Below are positions 59,021-64,000 of a DNA stretch of 64,000 bases, one piece after another. Origin of the DNA: Halarcobacter sp. GTDB lineage: Bacteria > Campylobacterota > Campylobacteria > Campylobacterales > Arcobacteraceae. The stretch's first letter is position 1; each line of letters begins with the position of its first letter. The position numbers and the translations under genes are program-made. The notes beneath the pieces are model-generated. The model searched no databases, had not been told where the DNA came from, and saw only the letters and a list, made by a program, of their open reading frames with translations. The stretch is taken from positions 2,514,680-2,578,679 of the forward strand of contig NZ_OY781470.1 in the NCBI RefSeq assembly GCF_963676935.1, read 5' to 3'.

Positions 59021-59025
59021 CATTT
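58998..59025. terminator. Convergent terminator overlapping the methyltransferase end
   Basis: AAATGCTACTT / AAGTAGCATTT with a 6-base loop. It covers the last codons and stop of the methyltransferase and touches the stop of the DUF779 gene. Confidence 0.55.
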
Positions 59026-59401
59026 ATGATTCTAATTTTTTAATCTCTTCATACTCTTCATCTGAAAATATTCTTGAACGAGTTATAAACTGATATCCAT
59101 GGTCGATTTCAATTGAAAAAGAGTTTCCAAAAGCTGCTTTTTCCTCTTTTACATCAATTATTATCTGTGAGTGTCTAAAATACTCAAATTGATCTTTGTC
59201 TATAAAAAATTCACAGCCACAAATTTCACCTAATTTTACATTTCTACTAGGTACATAAAAATCGCCTTTTTCATAACACATAGGAGCTGTACCATCACAA
59301 CATCCACCACTTTGATTAAAGACCAAATCCCCATGCTCTTTTTTTAACATTTCAACAACTTCTTTTGCATCGTCACTTACGATAACTCTTCTTGTATCCA
59401 T
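59024..59401 (-). CDS. DUF779-family protein
   Basis: 125 residues. FNQSGGCCDGTAPMCYEKGDF near 28-48 and GEICGCEFFIDKDQFEYF near 58-75 hold five Cys and are the DUF779 signature; SIEIDHGYQFITRSRIFSDEE closes it. The family is usually encoded beside acetaldehyde/aldehyde dehydrogenases, as here. The Cys residues may bind a metal. Its role is unknown; it may be an accessory factor of the dehydrogenase. It starts 48 bases after that gene with a hairpin between. Confidence 0.85.
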   Translation of the reverse strand: MDTRRVIVSDDAKEVVEMLKKEHGDLVFNQSGGCCDGTAPMCYEKGDFYVPSRNVKLGEICGCEFFIDKDQFEYFRHSQIIIDVKEEKAAFGNSFSIEIDHGYQFITRSRIFSDEEYEEIKKLES

Positions 59402-59449: not shown

Positions 59450-60955
59450 TTAAAAGAATCCTAAGGCATTTTTGCTGTAAGAAGTTAAGATATTTTTTGT
59501 ATGTCTGTATGAATTTAACATCATCATATGAGTTTCTCTACCTATACCTGATTTTTTATATCCACCAAATGAAGCATGAGAAGGATACATATGGTAGCAG
59601 TTTACCCAAACTCTACCTGCTTGAATTGCTCTTGACATTTTGTGTAATTGATGTGCATCTCTTGACCATACACCAGAACCTAATCCATATACAGTATCAT
59701 TTGCAATTTCAATTGCTTCCTCTTCATCTTTAAAAGTAGTAACAGCTAATACTGGTCCAAAAATCTCTTCTTGGAAAATTCTCATTTTATTGTGACCTTT
59801 AAAGATTGTTGGTTTAATATAGAATCCATTTGGATGTTTTTCAGACTCATAAGCTTCACCACCAATTAAACACTCAGCACCCTCTTCTTTACCGATTTTA
59901 ATATAATCTAAGATTTTCTCTTTTTGGTTAAGAGAGCATTGAGCTCCCATCATATTTTCAACATCAAGAGGATCACCTAATTTAATAGCTTTCACTCTTT
60001 CTAATACTCTTTTCATAAATGGCTCATAAATTGACTCTTGAATAAGTGCTCTTGATGGACAAGTACAAACCTCACCTGAGTTAAATGCAAATAATACTAA
60101 TCCTTCAATAGCTTTGTCAAAGAACTCATCATCTGCATCCATAATTGATTCAAAGAATATATTTGGAGATTTTCCACCAAGTTCCAGTGTTGAAGGAATA
60201 ATATTTTCAGTTGCATATTGCATAATTAACTGACCAGTTGTAGTTTCCCCTGTAAATCCTACTTTTTTAATATCTGGGTGAGTTGCTAAATATTTACCTA
60301 TTTTACCACCTGAACCATTAATAATATTTATAACACCTTTTGGTAAAACATTTTGAATTGTTTCCATTAATAATAAAATTGATTTTGGTGTAGCTGATGC
60401 TGGTTTCATAACAACACAATTTCCAGCTGCTAATGCAGGAGCTAATTTCCATGCTGCCATTAATAATGGAAAATTCCATGGAATAATTTGTGCTACAACT
60501 CCATATGGTTCAAAAACCTCTTGTGAAATTGTATCTTCATCAAGATCAGCAACTGTACCTGATTCAGCTCTAATAACTGATGCAAAATATCTAAAATGAT
60601 CAACAACTAAAGGTAAGTCAGCATTTAGTGTTTCTCTAACAGTTTTACCATTATCTAAAGTTTCAACAACTGCAAGAGCTTCAAGATTTGCTTCAATTGC
60701 ATCTGCAACTCTATTTAACATTGTACTTCTTTCGATTACTGAAGTGTGTTTATAAGATTCAAAAGCTGTTTTTGCAGCTTGTACAGCTAATTCAACATCC
60801 TCTTCATTTGATCTTGGAATTCTTGTTAAAACATCACCATCAACAGGTGAAATATTATCAAAATACTCGCCACTTTTTGGAGCTACCCATTCTCCACCAA
60901 TAAAATTCTCATATTGAGGCTTAAAAGTTGGTTTTTCATAAATTTTAGCAGACAT
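59450..60955 (-). CDS. NAD-dependent aldehyde dehydrogenase (AcoD/ExaC-like)
   Basis: 501 residues. IIPWNFPLLMAAWKLAPALA (NAD site), the catalytic Glu in STLELGGKSPNIFF, and the catalytic Cys in FNSGEVCTCPSRALI; FGGYKKSGIGRETHMMML at the C-terminus is typical. CTCPSR is found in the ExaC/AcoD acetaldehyde dehydrogenase group, usually linked with DUF779 as here. It would oxidise acetaldehyde or other short aldehydes to acids. It is divergent from the FIST kinase; AAAGGAAATGAT precedes the ATG. Confidence 0.9.
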   Translation of the reverse strand: MSAKIYEKPTFKPQYENFIGGEWVAPKSGEYFDNISPVDGDVLTRIPRSNEEDVELAVQAAKTAFESYKHTSVIERSTMLNRVADAIEANLEALAVVETLDNGKTVRETLNADLPLVVDHFRYFASVIRAESGTVADLDEDTISQEVFEPYGVVAQIIPWNFPLLMAAWKLAPALAAGNCVVMKPASATPKSILLLMETIQNVLPKGVINIINGSGGKIGKYLATHPDIKKVGFTGETTTGQLIMQYATENIIPSTLELGGKSPNIFFESIMDADDEFFDKAIEGLVLFAFNSGEVCTCPSRALIQESIYEPFMKRVLERVKAIKLGDPLDVENMMGAQCSLNQKEKILDYIKIGKEEGAECLIGGEAYESEKHPNGFYIKPTIFKGHNKMRIFQEEIFGPVLAVTTFKDEEEAIEIANDTVYGLGSGVWSRDAHQLHKMSRAIQAGRVWVNCYHMYPSHASFGGYKKSGIGRETHMMMLNSYRHTKNILTSYSKNALGFF

Positions 60956-61041
60956 ATCATTTCCTTTTATATATTAAAATGAAAAAATCATATACGTAAA
61001 GTGTATTAATCTTTTCTTGATGAAATCTTACTGTATAAATA

Positions 61042-61121
61042 TAGCTTGAATTTAGCCTGAATATAGCCTGAATATAGCGTTAATTTTTTTGTTTCCAAAT
61101 AGCCCATTTTTAGCCATTTTT
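61042..61121. repeat. Array of 11-bp direct repeats, candidate OmpR/PhoB-type operator
   Basis: Four head-to-tail 11-bp units: TAGCTTGAATT (61042), TAGCCTGAATA (61053), TAGCCTGAATA (61064) and TAGCGTTAATT (61075). After 14 bases come two more, TAGCCCATTTT (61100) and TAGCCATTTTT (61111). All start TAGC. The period is one DNA turn, as in binding sites of OmpR/PhoB regulators. It lies between the divergent aldehyde dehydrogenase and FIST kinase genes. Confidence 0.7.
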
Positions 61122-61162
61122 TAATAAAAATATCTATTATATTTTTTTTAAAAAAAATATTT

Positions 61163-63097
61163 ATGATACAATTTTGTATGAAAACTTTTAACTATAATAT
61201 TAAAAATGGTATTGAAAATAGCAATATTAATCTAGAACTATTAAAAAATGAAGAAAATATATTAATACAAATTTTTTGTGGTCAAGGATATAGTAATTTA
61301 AAAGATATTATAGAAAAACTAAAAAAAGAACTCCCCCAATCAATTATTATTGGTACAACAACTGATGGAGAGATTAAAAATACCTCTATTACAACATCTA
61401 ATACCATCATTTCAATCTCAATATTTAAAGAAACTAAAATTTTAGCCTCTTATGCAGATGATAAAAACTCTTTTAATAATGGTTTTAATCTGGCAAAAAA
61501 TTTAGTTACTAGTAATACAAAACTTCTAATACTATTTACAGATGGAACAACAACAAATGGAGAAAACTTTTTAAAAGGTGTAGAGTCTTTTAGTAATACA
61601 ACTCCAATATGTGGGGGAATGGCAGGAGATAATGGAAAGTTTACACAAACATTTATTTCATGCCAAGATAAAATTTTAAAAAGTGGTGCAGTTGGTGTTT
61701 CTTTAAATTCTGATAAATTAAAAGTTCATAACGATTATAGATTTAATTGGTCCCCAATTGGTATTGAACATACAATTGATAAAATTGAAGATAATAGAGT
61801 TTATAGTATAAATGGGATGTCCCCTGTTGAGTTTTATGCAAAATATTTAGGAGAAGATGTTGCAATGGCACTGCCTGCAACAGGGATAGAATTTCCACTT
61901 ATAGTTGAGAAAGATGGTATTCCTACGGCAAGAGCAGTAATTGCTAAGCATAGCGATGGAAGTGTAAGTTTTGCAGGAAATTTGGAAGAGGGAGATAAGG
62001 TAAAATTAGGTTTTGGAAATGCTGAGATGATTATGCAAAATCCTATAGAAAGCCTAAATAACTTAAGTTCAATGAAACCTGAAAGTTTTTTTCTATTTTC
62101 ATGTATGGCAAGAAGAAGATATATGCCAAGCTTTATCCAAGTAGAGGTGGAACCCTTTGCAAAAATTGCACCCACTTCTGGTTTTTTTACCTATGCAGAG
62201 TTTTATCACAATGGAACTAATAATCTTCTTTTAAATCAAACATTGACAATAGTTGCACTTACAGAAGATTCTTCTGAAAGTGACTTTAAAGAGTTAAATC
62301 TAGAACCAAAAGAAAAGAATGAACATGCGAGAACAATAAGAGCTTTAACTCATCTTATACAACAATCAACAAAAGATTATGATAAACAAACTGCAAAATT
62401 AAATGAAGAAAAATTATATACCCATAATCTATTAGCTGCACAAAAACAGTTTTTAAGACATACAATTCATGAAACAAACACACCTTTATCTTCTATTATG
62501 TGGAATGTTGAACTACATGAAATGGAATTAGGAAAAAGTAGATACTTATCAAACATTGAAGTTGCTATGAAAAATCTTTTTTCAATCTATGATGATTTAA
62601 GTTATCTAGTAAAAAGAGATCAAATAAATTATTCTACTCAAAGAATTGATTTAACAGATTACCTTAGAAGTAGAATTGATTTTTTCTTTCAAGTTGCATT
62701 AAAAGCAAAATCTAAATTAATATTTGATAGCTCAAATAAATCTCGTTTTATAAATTTTAATGAAACAAAACTTCAAAGAATCATAGACAATAATTTAACA
62801 AATGCGATAAAATATACTTTTGAAAACGAAGATATACATATTGTACTTTATGAAGAAAATGATTTTTTTAAACTTCAGTTTACAAGCCATTCAAGTGTAA
62901 TTCAAGAACCTCAAAAAATTTTTGAAGAGTATTATAGAGAAGAGAAATTAAAAGAGGGTTTTGGCTTAGGTTTAAATTTAGTAAAAAAAATATGTGATGA
63001 GGAAGATGTAAAAATAAAAGTAGAATCAAACAACTATTTTACAACTTTTTCATATTACTTTAAAAAGGAAGATAAAGATGAAAATTCTATTACTTGA
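61163..63097 (+). CDS. FIST-domain sensor histidine kinase
   Basis: 644 residues with no membrane helix, so probably cytoplasmic. FIST_N (about 30-225; IIIGTTTDGEIKN, LLILFTDGTTTNGENFL, GGMAGDNGKFTQTFI) and FIST_C (about 226-368) form a small-ligand sensor. Then a coiled coil and the kinase: phospho-His436 in LRHTIHETNTPLSSIMW, N-box NNLTNAIKYTF and G-box GFGLGLNLVKKI. The start may instead be the ATG at 61178; neither has a good ribosome site. It overlaps the response regulator by 20 bases. FIST domains are thought to bind amino acids or similar small compounds. Confidence 0.88.
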   Translation: MIQFCMKTFNYNIKNGIENSNINLELLKNEENILIQIFCGQGYSNLKDIIEKLKKELPQSIIIGTTTDGEIKNTSITTSNTIISISIFKETKILASYADDKNSFNNGFNLAKNLVTSNTKLLILFTDGTTTNGENFLKGVESFSNTTPICGGMAGDNGKFTQTFISCQDKILKSGAVGVSLNSDKLKVHNDYRFNWSPIGIEHTIDKIEDNRVYSINGMSPVEFYAKYLGEDVAMALPATGIEFPLIVEKDGIPTARAVIAKHSDGSVSFAGNLEEGDKVKLGFGNAEMIMQNPIESLNNLSSMKPESFFLFSCMARRRYMPSFIQVEVEPFAKIAPTSGFFTYAEFYHNGTNNLLLNQTLTIVALTEDSSESDFKELNLEPKEKNEHARTIRALTHLIQQSTKDYDKQTAKLNEEKLYTHNLLAAQKQFLRHTIHETNTPLSSIMWNVELHEMELGKSRYLSNIEVAMKNLFSIYDDLSYLVKRDQINYSTQRIDLTDYLRSRIDFFFQVALKAKSKLIFDSSNKSRFINFNETKLQRIIDNNLTNAIKYTFENEDIHIVLYEENDFFKLQFTSHSSVIQEPQKIFEEYYREEKLKEGFGLGLNLVKKICDEEDVKIKVESNNYFTTFSYYFKKEDKDENSIT

Positions 63098-63737
63098 AGA
63101 TGATTTGATGTTAAATGATGCAATAACTCAATATTTAACATCTGTAGGACATCAAATTGTATCATCAAAAGATGGAAAAACTTGCCTTGAAATATTAGAA
63201 AATGAAAAGTTTGATATGTTAATACTAGATATTAATCTTCCAGATATTGATGGTTTTACTATTTTAGAAGAACTTCATAAACAAAAAAGAACAATTCCTA
63301 CTATATTTATCTCTGCACTTTTAGATATTGAAGAGATATCAAGAGCTTTTGATATTGGTTGCCATGATTATTTAAAAAAACCCTTTCATCTAAAAGAATT
63401 AAATCTTCGAATAAATAAGATTTTAAAATCTTCAGTTGTTCCTCAAAATCATAAAAGATTATCAAAATTATATAGTTTTGATCACGATAATATGACACTT
63501 TATTTTAATAATGAACCCCATATTTTACCCAAAAGACAACTTATGATAATCTCTTTATTGTCTAAAAATAGAAGTTTAGTTGTAAATTATGATATGTTTA
63601 GAGAATATGCTTATGATGGAGATGATATAGATACCGCAACTATAAGAGCTGAAGTTAATAGAGTAAAAAAAGTATTAAAAGAGGACTTTATAATAAATAT
63701 CAGAGGAATTGGATATATGGTTGAAAGACCAAATTAA
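63078..63737 (+). CDS. OmpR-type response regulator, partner of the FIST kinase
   Basis: 219 residues. Receiver with Asp8-Asp9 (LLLEDD), phospho-acceptor Asp51 (MLILDINLPDIDG) and Lys101 (YLKKPF). The winged-helix domain (about 130-219) has LPKRQLMIISLLSKN and ends RGIGYMVERPN. AAGGAAG lies upstream within the kinase gene. Regulators of this group bind tandem 11-bp repeats, such as those found 2 kb upstream. Confidence 0.92.
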   Translation: MKILLLEDDLMLNDAITQYLTSVGHQIVSSKDGKTCLEILENEKFDMLILDINLPDIDGFTILEELHKQKRTIPTIFISALLDIEEISRAFDIGCHDYLKKPFHLKELNLRINKILKSSVVPQNHKRLSKLYSFDHDNMTLYFNNEPHILPKRQLMIISLLSKNRSLVVNYDMFREYAYDGDDIDTATIRAEVNRVKKVLKEDFIINIRGIGYMVERPN

Positions 63738-63738
63738 A

Positions 63739-64000
63739 TTACATCATAGGTAACTCAATAAAAAATTTAGCTCCATTTTTTGTATTTTTAGCATAAATAT
63801 TACCTTTTAGACTTTCATTAATAATTCTATAACTCATATTTAATCCTAAACCTGTTCCTAATGTTTGATGTTTTGTTGTAAAATATGGTTCGAAAATATG
63901 TGGCATATTTTTTTCAGGAATTCCCCCTGCATTATCTTCAACAGCAATGATAATTCTATCATCAATCGAATATAGTTCTAGCTTTATCCATGGATTTATC
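63739..64000 (-). CDS. Histidine kinase, C-terminal ATPase part (truncated by window edge)
   Basis: The frame is open from the window end to the stop at 63739-63741, giving about 86 C-terminal residues. Motifs: VEDNAGGIPEKNMPHIFEPY (G1 box), FTTKHQTLGTGLGLNMSYRI (G2 box) and GNIYAKNTKNGAKFFIELP at the end. This is the HATPase_c domain of a sensor kinase. It converges on the FIST response regulator with one base between the two stops. The sensor part lies outside the window. Confidence 0.88.
   Translation of the reverse strand, partial: INPWIKLELYSIDDRIIIAVEDNAGGIPEKNMPHIFEPYFTTKHQTLGTGLGLNMSYRIINESLKGNIYAKNTKNGAKFFIELPMM

Follow-up and report, generated by a model that had tools for sequence, protein, structure and literature searches.

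The locus raises the question of what a short array of direct repeats does in the gap between an aldehyde dehydrogenase (ALDH) gene and a divergently oriented operon encoding a FIST-domain histidine kinase and a response regulator. In the window (the whole 64-kb stretch of DNA that was analysed), TAGC is found at positions 61042, 61053, 61064 and 61075, that is, in three exact 11-bp steps, and, beyond the fourth 11-bp unit and 14 intervening bases, at a further pair of positions (61100 and 61111, 11 bp apart); the positions of the six units, four of them joined, were as the initial annotation had described them. Note that the relevant direction of the array is that of the ALDH (minus) strand, on which the unit is GCTATATTCAG, a correction to the TAGC reading (Table 1). 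The array was reported by TRF as 3.7 copies, 90% identical, and a search of the window and of the whole 3.1-Mb genome for TAGCN7TAGCN7TAGC with at most one mismatch gave only two overlapping matches, both being the array itself. As a control, the gap was dinucleotide-shuffled 20,000 times and scored for G/C-containing 4-mers at the 11-bp period: no run of four was obtained for any such 4-mer, and a run of three was obtained in 5 cases. An imperfect 27-bp A/T repeat (61117-61170) is also present just upstream of the -10 box of the FIST kinase, and similar T-rich tracts occupy the same place in other gaps.

Table 1. Positions in the window of the repeat array, the predicted promoter elements and the flanking genes
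Feature	Position	Strand	Basis or remark
DUF779 protein	59024..59401	-	downstream of ALDH in nearly all relatives
Aldehyde dehydrogenase (ALDH)	59450..60955	-	nearest NCBIfam model: acetaldehyde dehydrogenase ExaC
ALDH promoter, predicted -10 box TAAGAT	61025..61030	-	11 nt downstream of last GCTA; column profile
Main array, four 11-bp direct repeats	61035..61078	-	window sequence and column profile of 50 gaps
Array unit 1, ALDH strand: GCTATATTCAG	61078-61068	-	
Array unit 2, ALDH strand: GCTATATTCAG	61067-61057	-	
Array unit 3, ALDH strand: GCTAAATTCAA	61056-61046	-	
Array unit 4, ALDH strand: GCTATATTTAT	61045-61035	-	
Second, less conserved unit pair (TAGC 61100, 61111)	61094..61115	-	gap comparison
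FIST-kinase promoter, predicted extended -10 box TGATACAAT	61164..61172	+	5 nt before ATG 61178
FIST-N/FIST-C domain histidine kinase (soluble sensor kinase)	61178..63097	+	probable start 61178
OmpR/PhoB-type response regulator, proposed array binder	63078..63737	+	domains, identity, co-occurrence

The flanking genes were assigned by domain and family models. The ALDH scored 839 bits with the NCBIfam ExaC model, below the curated cut-off of 900. The kinase matched FIST (140.6 bits) and FIST_C (75.6 bits), as the sensors of NosP/FIST systems do. The regulator matched Response_reg (89.5 bits) and Trans_reg_C (27.1 bits; cut-off, 26.2), and, among proteins of solved structure, full-length chains of the OmpR/PhoB family were closest to it in sequence; the earlier assignment of an OmpR/PhoB-type regulator to the adjacent operon was borne out by these matches. 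Another kinase-like gene, convergent with the regulator gene, is truncated by the end of the window; its C-terminal part (63739-63999, minus strand) looks, by eye, like an ATPase-type C-terminus. In two other genomes (L060 and L061, in G020 and G017), a second FIST-kinase/regulator pair, whose regulator is 62-66% identical, lies downstream of a methyltransferase gene, with neither an ALDH neighbour nor the array.

For the comparison of the gaps, orthologues of the regulator were located in relatives (Arcobacteraceae) and the loci were compared, which gave 50 divergent ALDH/FIST gaps from 50 genomes, the present one included. The array is kept in all 50 gaps, as counted over related genomes that are not fully independent of phylogeny; loss of the repeats from orthologous gaps, which the initial annotation had named as the result that would speak against its proposal, was not seen. 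At least four exact consecutive units are present in 38 gaps; in the others, one unit is degenerate or one step is 12 bp long. Distances between TAGC pairs over the 50 gaps were 11 bp in 140 cases, 22 bp in 81 and 33 bp in 43, with about 0.2 expected per distance (0.3 at 11 bp in the shuffles). The column profile anchored on the last GCTA gave the unit GCTA[AT]A[TC]TCA[GC] and the extended -10 TGTA[AG]AATTTC; beyond these, just a short A-run downstream of the -10 is conserved. Most of the gap outside the array and the -10 has diverged among the 50 genomes, as have the spacers.

On the ALDH strand, the array has the form (GCTATATTCAG)n, followed by GCTA-N11-TAnnnT, and in 50 of 50 gaps exactly 11 nt separate the last repeat from the -10 box. 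TG usually precedes this box, and the place of a -35 box is taken up by the last two array units, which leaves no space for a separate one. The ALDH transcript is predicted to begin near 61018. The direct repeats are thus one helical turn apart (exact 11-bp steps), their distance to the -10 is fixed where a -35 box would be, and a winged-helix OmpR/PhoB-type regulator is encoded alongside; this is the arrangement expected of a class II activator site of the OmpR/PhoB type that stands in for the -35 box. The layout is established for PhoB of Escherichia coli, a winged-helix regulator with a Trans_reg_C domain that performs class II activation from the pho box, in which 11-bp direct repeats take the place of the -35 next to the -10. 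The pho box repeat is CTGTCAT, unlike GCTATATTCAG, and the recognition-helix residues and the stimulus also differ. Because the N11 between the last GCTA and the -10 box is fixed, control of the ALDH from the array is strongly supported by the sequence comparison.

On the other side of the gap, TGNTANNNT occurs 5-7 nt before the FIST-kinase start codon in 46 of the 50 gaps, for which reason the FIST-kinase transcript is predicted to be leaderless here and in nearly all relatives. The true start codon is probably that at 61178; the start at 61163 given by the ORF caller is probably wrong, because its ATG is within ATGATACAAT, part of the extended -10 box. Read in the TAGC (plus-strand) direction, the array might be a class II site serving the FIST promoter; this was rejected, since every unit in this genome is at least 50 bp away from the FIST -10 box.

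The association between the array and the regulator was then assessed across the family with the array sub-type in its promoter form, GCTANANTNASGCTATA-N9-TANNNT, and with the reversed pattern as the control. The pattern was present in 44 of the 62 family genomes with a regulator orthologue and in 0 of the 42 without it (Fisher, p = 5e-15), and within genus g11 the corresponding fractions were 11/14 and 0/17 (p = 4e-6); the reversed pattern gave zero hits in the family genomes. In closed genomes, all 27 sub-type sites were within 30 kb of the regulator gene, and 18 of these were outside the ALDH gap. The strict promoter pattern was not matched exactly in eighteen of the genomes with the regulator, of which some, including the present one, fit a relaxed form; with the relaxed ALDH-type pattern, no site besides the ALDH one was found in this genome. 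The adjacent FIST-linked OmpR/PhoB-type regulator is hence proposed as the predicted binder of the array.

The sites in relatives also indicate which genes such a regulator may serve. In the Sulfurospirillum-like genomes (family f20, recognised by the published PCE element), the gene that diverges from the FIST-kinase/regulator pair encodes a molybdopterin-dependent aldehyde oxidoreductase (NF045668, 1612 bits), and GCTATATTCAT-GCTA-N11-TATAAT is found upstream of it. An ALDH-specific element without a part for the regulator was rejected on these genomes, which keep the motif beside the regulator together with an unrelated aldehyde oxidoreductase. Simple inheritance of array and regulator together is likewise argued against, because the contrast is seen within one genus and the target gene has changed. 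In other genomes, sub-type sites flank ped-like genes (PedF, PedC, a PQQ-ABC binding protein and a PQQ beta-propeller protein); a PQQ-dependent alcohol dehydrogenase belongs to the same kind of cluster and is near such sites in one relative (L151). The expectation that the repeats always lie near FIST-kinase and ALDH genes did not hold in general, as they also precede ped-like and other genes, mostly no more than 30 kb away. A ped-like regulon in this genome was rejected, since TIGR03075 found no PQQ alcohol dehydrogenase in it and the ALDH site is the sole match to the relaxed pattern. Because alcohol and aldehyde oxidation is the common theme of the targets, it is the likeliest source of the signal. 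In other genera, TAGC arrays of four to six units were also observed before porin-like and cytochrome c genes (L097, L099, L100, L105, L107 and L109), some of them ending in GCTA-N11-TATAAT.

Most family genomes, among them genomes that lack the FIST-linked regulator, hold several copies of the broader pattern GCTAN7GCTAN11TANNAT; its reversed control gave about 0.1-0.2 per genome. Many of the remaining GCTA sites carry another spacer, GCTATTTTAAT-GCTA, with the same N11 geometry, and the positions at which the spacers of the two sub-types differ are consistent. Sites of this sister type are found before a VC_2705-family symporter operon, before pta-ackA, and beside the gene of a paralogous regulator, which is 53.7% identical to the FIST-linked one and is encoded with an sCache kinase in an acetate-uptake cluster. 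As this placement suggests, the paralogue apparently reads the sister motif. The recognition-helix region is TIRAEISRLKK in one paralogue and TIRAEVNRVKK in the other, with TIRAE in common, and the corresponding residues of RR2 (see below) are AIRTL. In this genome, an acetate-type cluster (L096, C1:572500-592400) contains two ActP/DUF485-type symporter pairs, a VC_2705-family symporter, two DUF294/exonuclease pairs, acetate kinase, and the sCache kinase with the paralogous regulator, and GCTA sites lie upstream of several of its operons. A sister-type GCTA promoter also precedes a predicted small RNA of 60-70 nt, with an intrinsic terminator at its end, between kefC-like and bioF-like genes (L147, 4513-4440, minus strand; about C1:2587440-2587512 in this genome; also L141, L040 and L174). 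In another genus, a similar small-RNA unit has other stem sequences and the core CTCCTTC/GTCCTTC; in this genome, the core is complementary to the ribosome-binding site in the DUF485-actP leader (TATGAAGGA). The small RNA is a candidate member of the acetate regulon. A 32-mer, GCTTCGCTTGCGCTAACATCATCAGTTAACCT, was encountered in this genome as an unexplained dispersed repeat (G000, C1:2132575, 2138743, 2436681 and 2897061).

We propose that the adjacent FIST-kinase/regulator pair uses the array as its operator, for class II activation of ALDH-DUF779 and probably for autoregulation of the FIST operon, and give this explanation as a whole a probability of roughly 0.85. The cytoplasmic FIST domain would sense a signal, most likely one tied to alcohol or aldehyde oxidation, upon which the FIST kinase would phosphorylate the regulator. 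The regulator would then occupy the four GCTATATTCAG repeats as tandem dimers on one face of the helix, and, because the last GCTA is 11 nt before the ALDH -10 box, the bound protein would take over the role of the -35 box and recruit sigma-70 RNA polymerase for the transcription of ALDH-DUF779. From the same array, the regulator would probably adjust its own leaderless FIST-kinase/regulator operon in the opposite direction.

Two of the alternatives concern what the bound regulator does. If it repressed ALDH by lying over the -35 region and shutting out RNA polymerase until the signal arrives, the array units would cover the -35 position in all gaps, as they do, and a repressor could in principle share the fixed geometry. 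However, the -35 position is the repeat itself, with no promoter element there, the distance from the terminal repeat to the -10 is invariant (50/50), the -10 box usually has the preceding TG seen at activator-dependent promoters, and RR2, of the nearest studied system, activates from the same position (PMC7755780); we regard repression as improbable. As for the FIST operon, the array might serve ALDH alone, the operon being constitutive from its extended -10 and merely sharing the gap. The orientation and exact spacing of the repeats do aim at ALDH, and the FIST -10 box is about 80-107 bp away with its own TGNTACAAT. Against this, exactly 84 bp separate the nearest main-array unit from the FIST -10 box in 19 genomes, and the separation is 80-84 bp in 27 of 46 (about 92-107 bp in most other genomes, 92 bp in this one), roughly a fifth of the relatives carry an additional, array-like pair closer to the FIST promoter (about 50/61 bp ahead of its -10 box), and the divergent element of Sulfurospirillum works on both sides (PMC7755780). 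An array for ALDH alone thus appears unlikely, if not negligibly so. That the array governs both divergent units, as initially suggested, is accordingly kept in part: the fixed N11 argues for ALDH, and control of the FIST operon, with its varying distance, is plausible and weaker than that for ALDH.

The remaining alternatives concern the identity of the binder and the reality of the site. The array could be bound mainly by the paralogous regulator of the acetate-uptake cluster, or be common to both regulators, given that the recognition-helix regions are near-identical and that GCTA promoters with the N11 spacing adjoin the paralogue gene and precede pta in its cluster. Where the paralogue is kept and the FIST-linked regulator is absent, however, no ALDH-type site is found (0/42 overall, 0/17 in genus g11), and such genomes retain the other sub-type, with its consistent differences in the spacer; we consider binding chiefly or jointly by the paralogue quite improbable. 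The tandem repeat detected by TRF might also be a functionless product of replication slippage, yet 50 genomes preserve its position, its spacing and its core in gaps whose spacers, and most of whose other sequence, have diverged, and its sites cluster genome-wide with the regulator. Slippage or a chance repeat was ruled out by the shuffles and this conservation, and its probability is practically negligible.

Tandem 11-bp operators of the OmpR/PhoB type are already known as a kind. The initial statement that the repeat matches no known operator is to be amended, as RR2 (TCS2, of the tetrachloroethene-respiration region), an OmpR-family regulator of Sulfurospirillum, which belongs to the same order, has been published to bind 11-bp CTATA repeats overlapping the -35, likewise in a class II layout, with a multi-unit element in the divergent gap beside its own operon, at about 85 bp from either start site (PMC7755780). 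The RR2 element, CTATW-N17-CTATW, shares the 11-bp period (N17 being two periods); CTATA is found in array units 1, 2 and 4, and units 2 and 4 together form CTATA-N17-CTATA. The published RR2 CRE sequence is present in four genomes of the comparison set. The RR2 gap repeats begin CCTATA rather than the GCTATA of the array, the element consists of two to three units instead of four, and RR2 controls dehalogenation genes, whereas the neighbours here are ALDH, DUF779 and the FIST kinase. RR2 is 25.7% identical to the FIST-linked regulator over 218 aa; orthology was rejected at this identity, and the likeness is therefore one of mechanism.

In Pseudomonas, the ped/exa cluster carries a FIST protein (NosP/PP_2663) and the kinase NahK/PedS1 (PMC12997753). 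A FIST protein and a histidine kinase are thus encoded with alcohol/aldehyde oxidation genes in both cases, and an ExaC/PedI-type ALDH, a porin, PedC and a SoxYZ carrier are shared; in Pseudomonas, however, FIST protein and kinase are separate and the activator is LuxR-type (AgmR/ErbR), whereas here the FIST domain is fused to the kinase and an OmpR-type regulator forms the output. The FIST proteins that have been characterised (NosP) are heme-binding NO sensors, and in the NosP-NosK-NosR systems the FIST domain controls a histidine kinase, as here, but the output is an HD-GYP regulator and not a DNA-binding one (PMC12570481). No operator for FIST with Arcobacter or with aldehyde dehydrogenase was found in the searched literature, which covered few subscription papers; as far as searched, the FIST-linked regulator, the motif, the invariant promoter rule and the paired code are new, as is the predicted connection between FIST kinases and the control of aldehyde/alcohol oxidation by an OmpR-type regulator in Campylobacterota.

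As for the paired code, we hold it somewhat more probable than its negation that two paralogous OmpR-type regulators use one 11-bp GCTA half-site with an invariant N11, are discriminated by the spacer only, and split the pathway steps between them: TATTCAG would belong to the FIST-linked alcohol/aldehyde regulator and TTTTAAT to the Cache-linked acetate regulator, which would also drive the small RNA. If so, the consecutive steps from alcohol to aldehyde to acetate would be shared out between sister regulons, and the paralogous pair would lend itself to testing how sister regulators avoid each other's sites. The rule (GCTA-N7)n-GCTA-N11-TAnnAT would make regulons readable straight from Arcobacteraceae genomes. 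A FIST-kinase two-component system without study in the searched literature gains an operator sequence, a promoter geometry and a candidate regulon, and FIST sensing would be tied to alcohol/aldehyde oxidation in a phylum where such regulation is little described.
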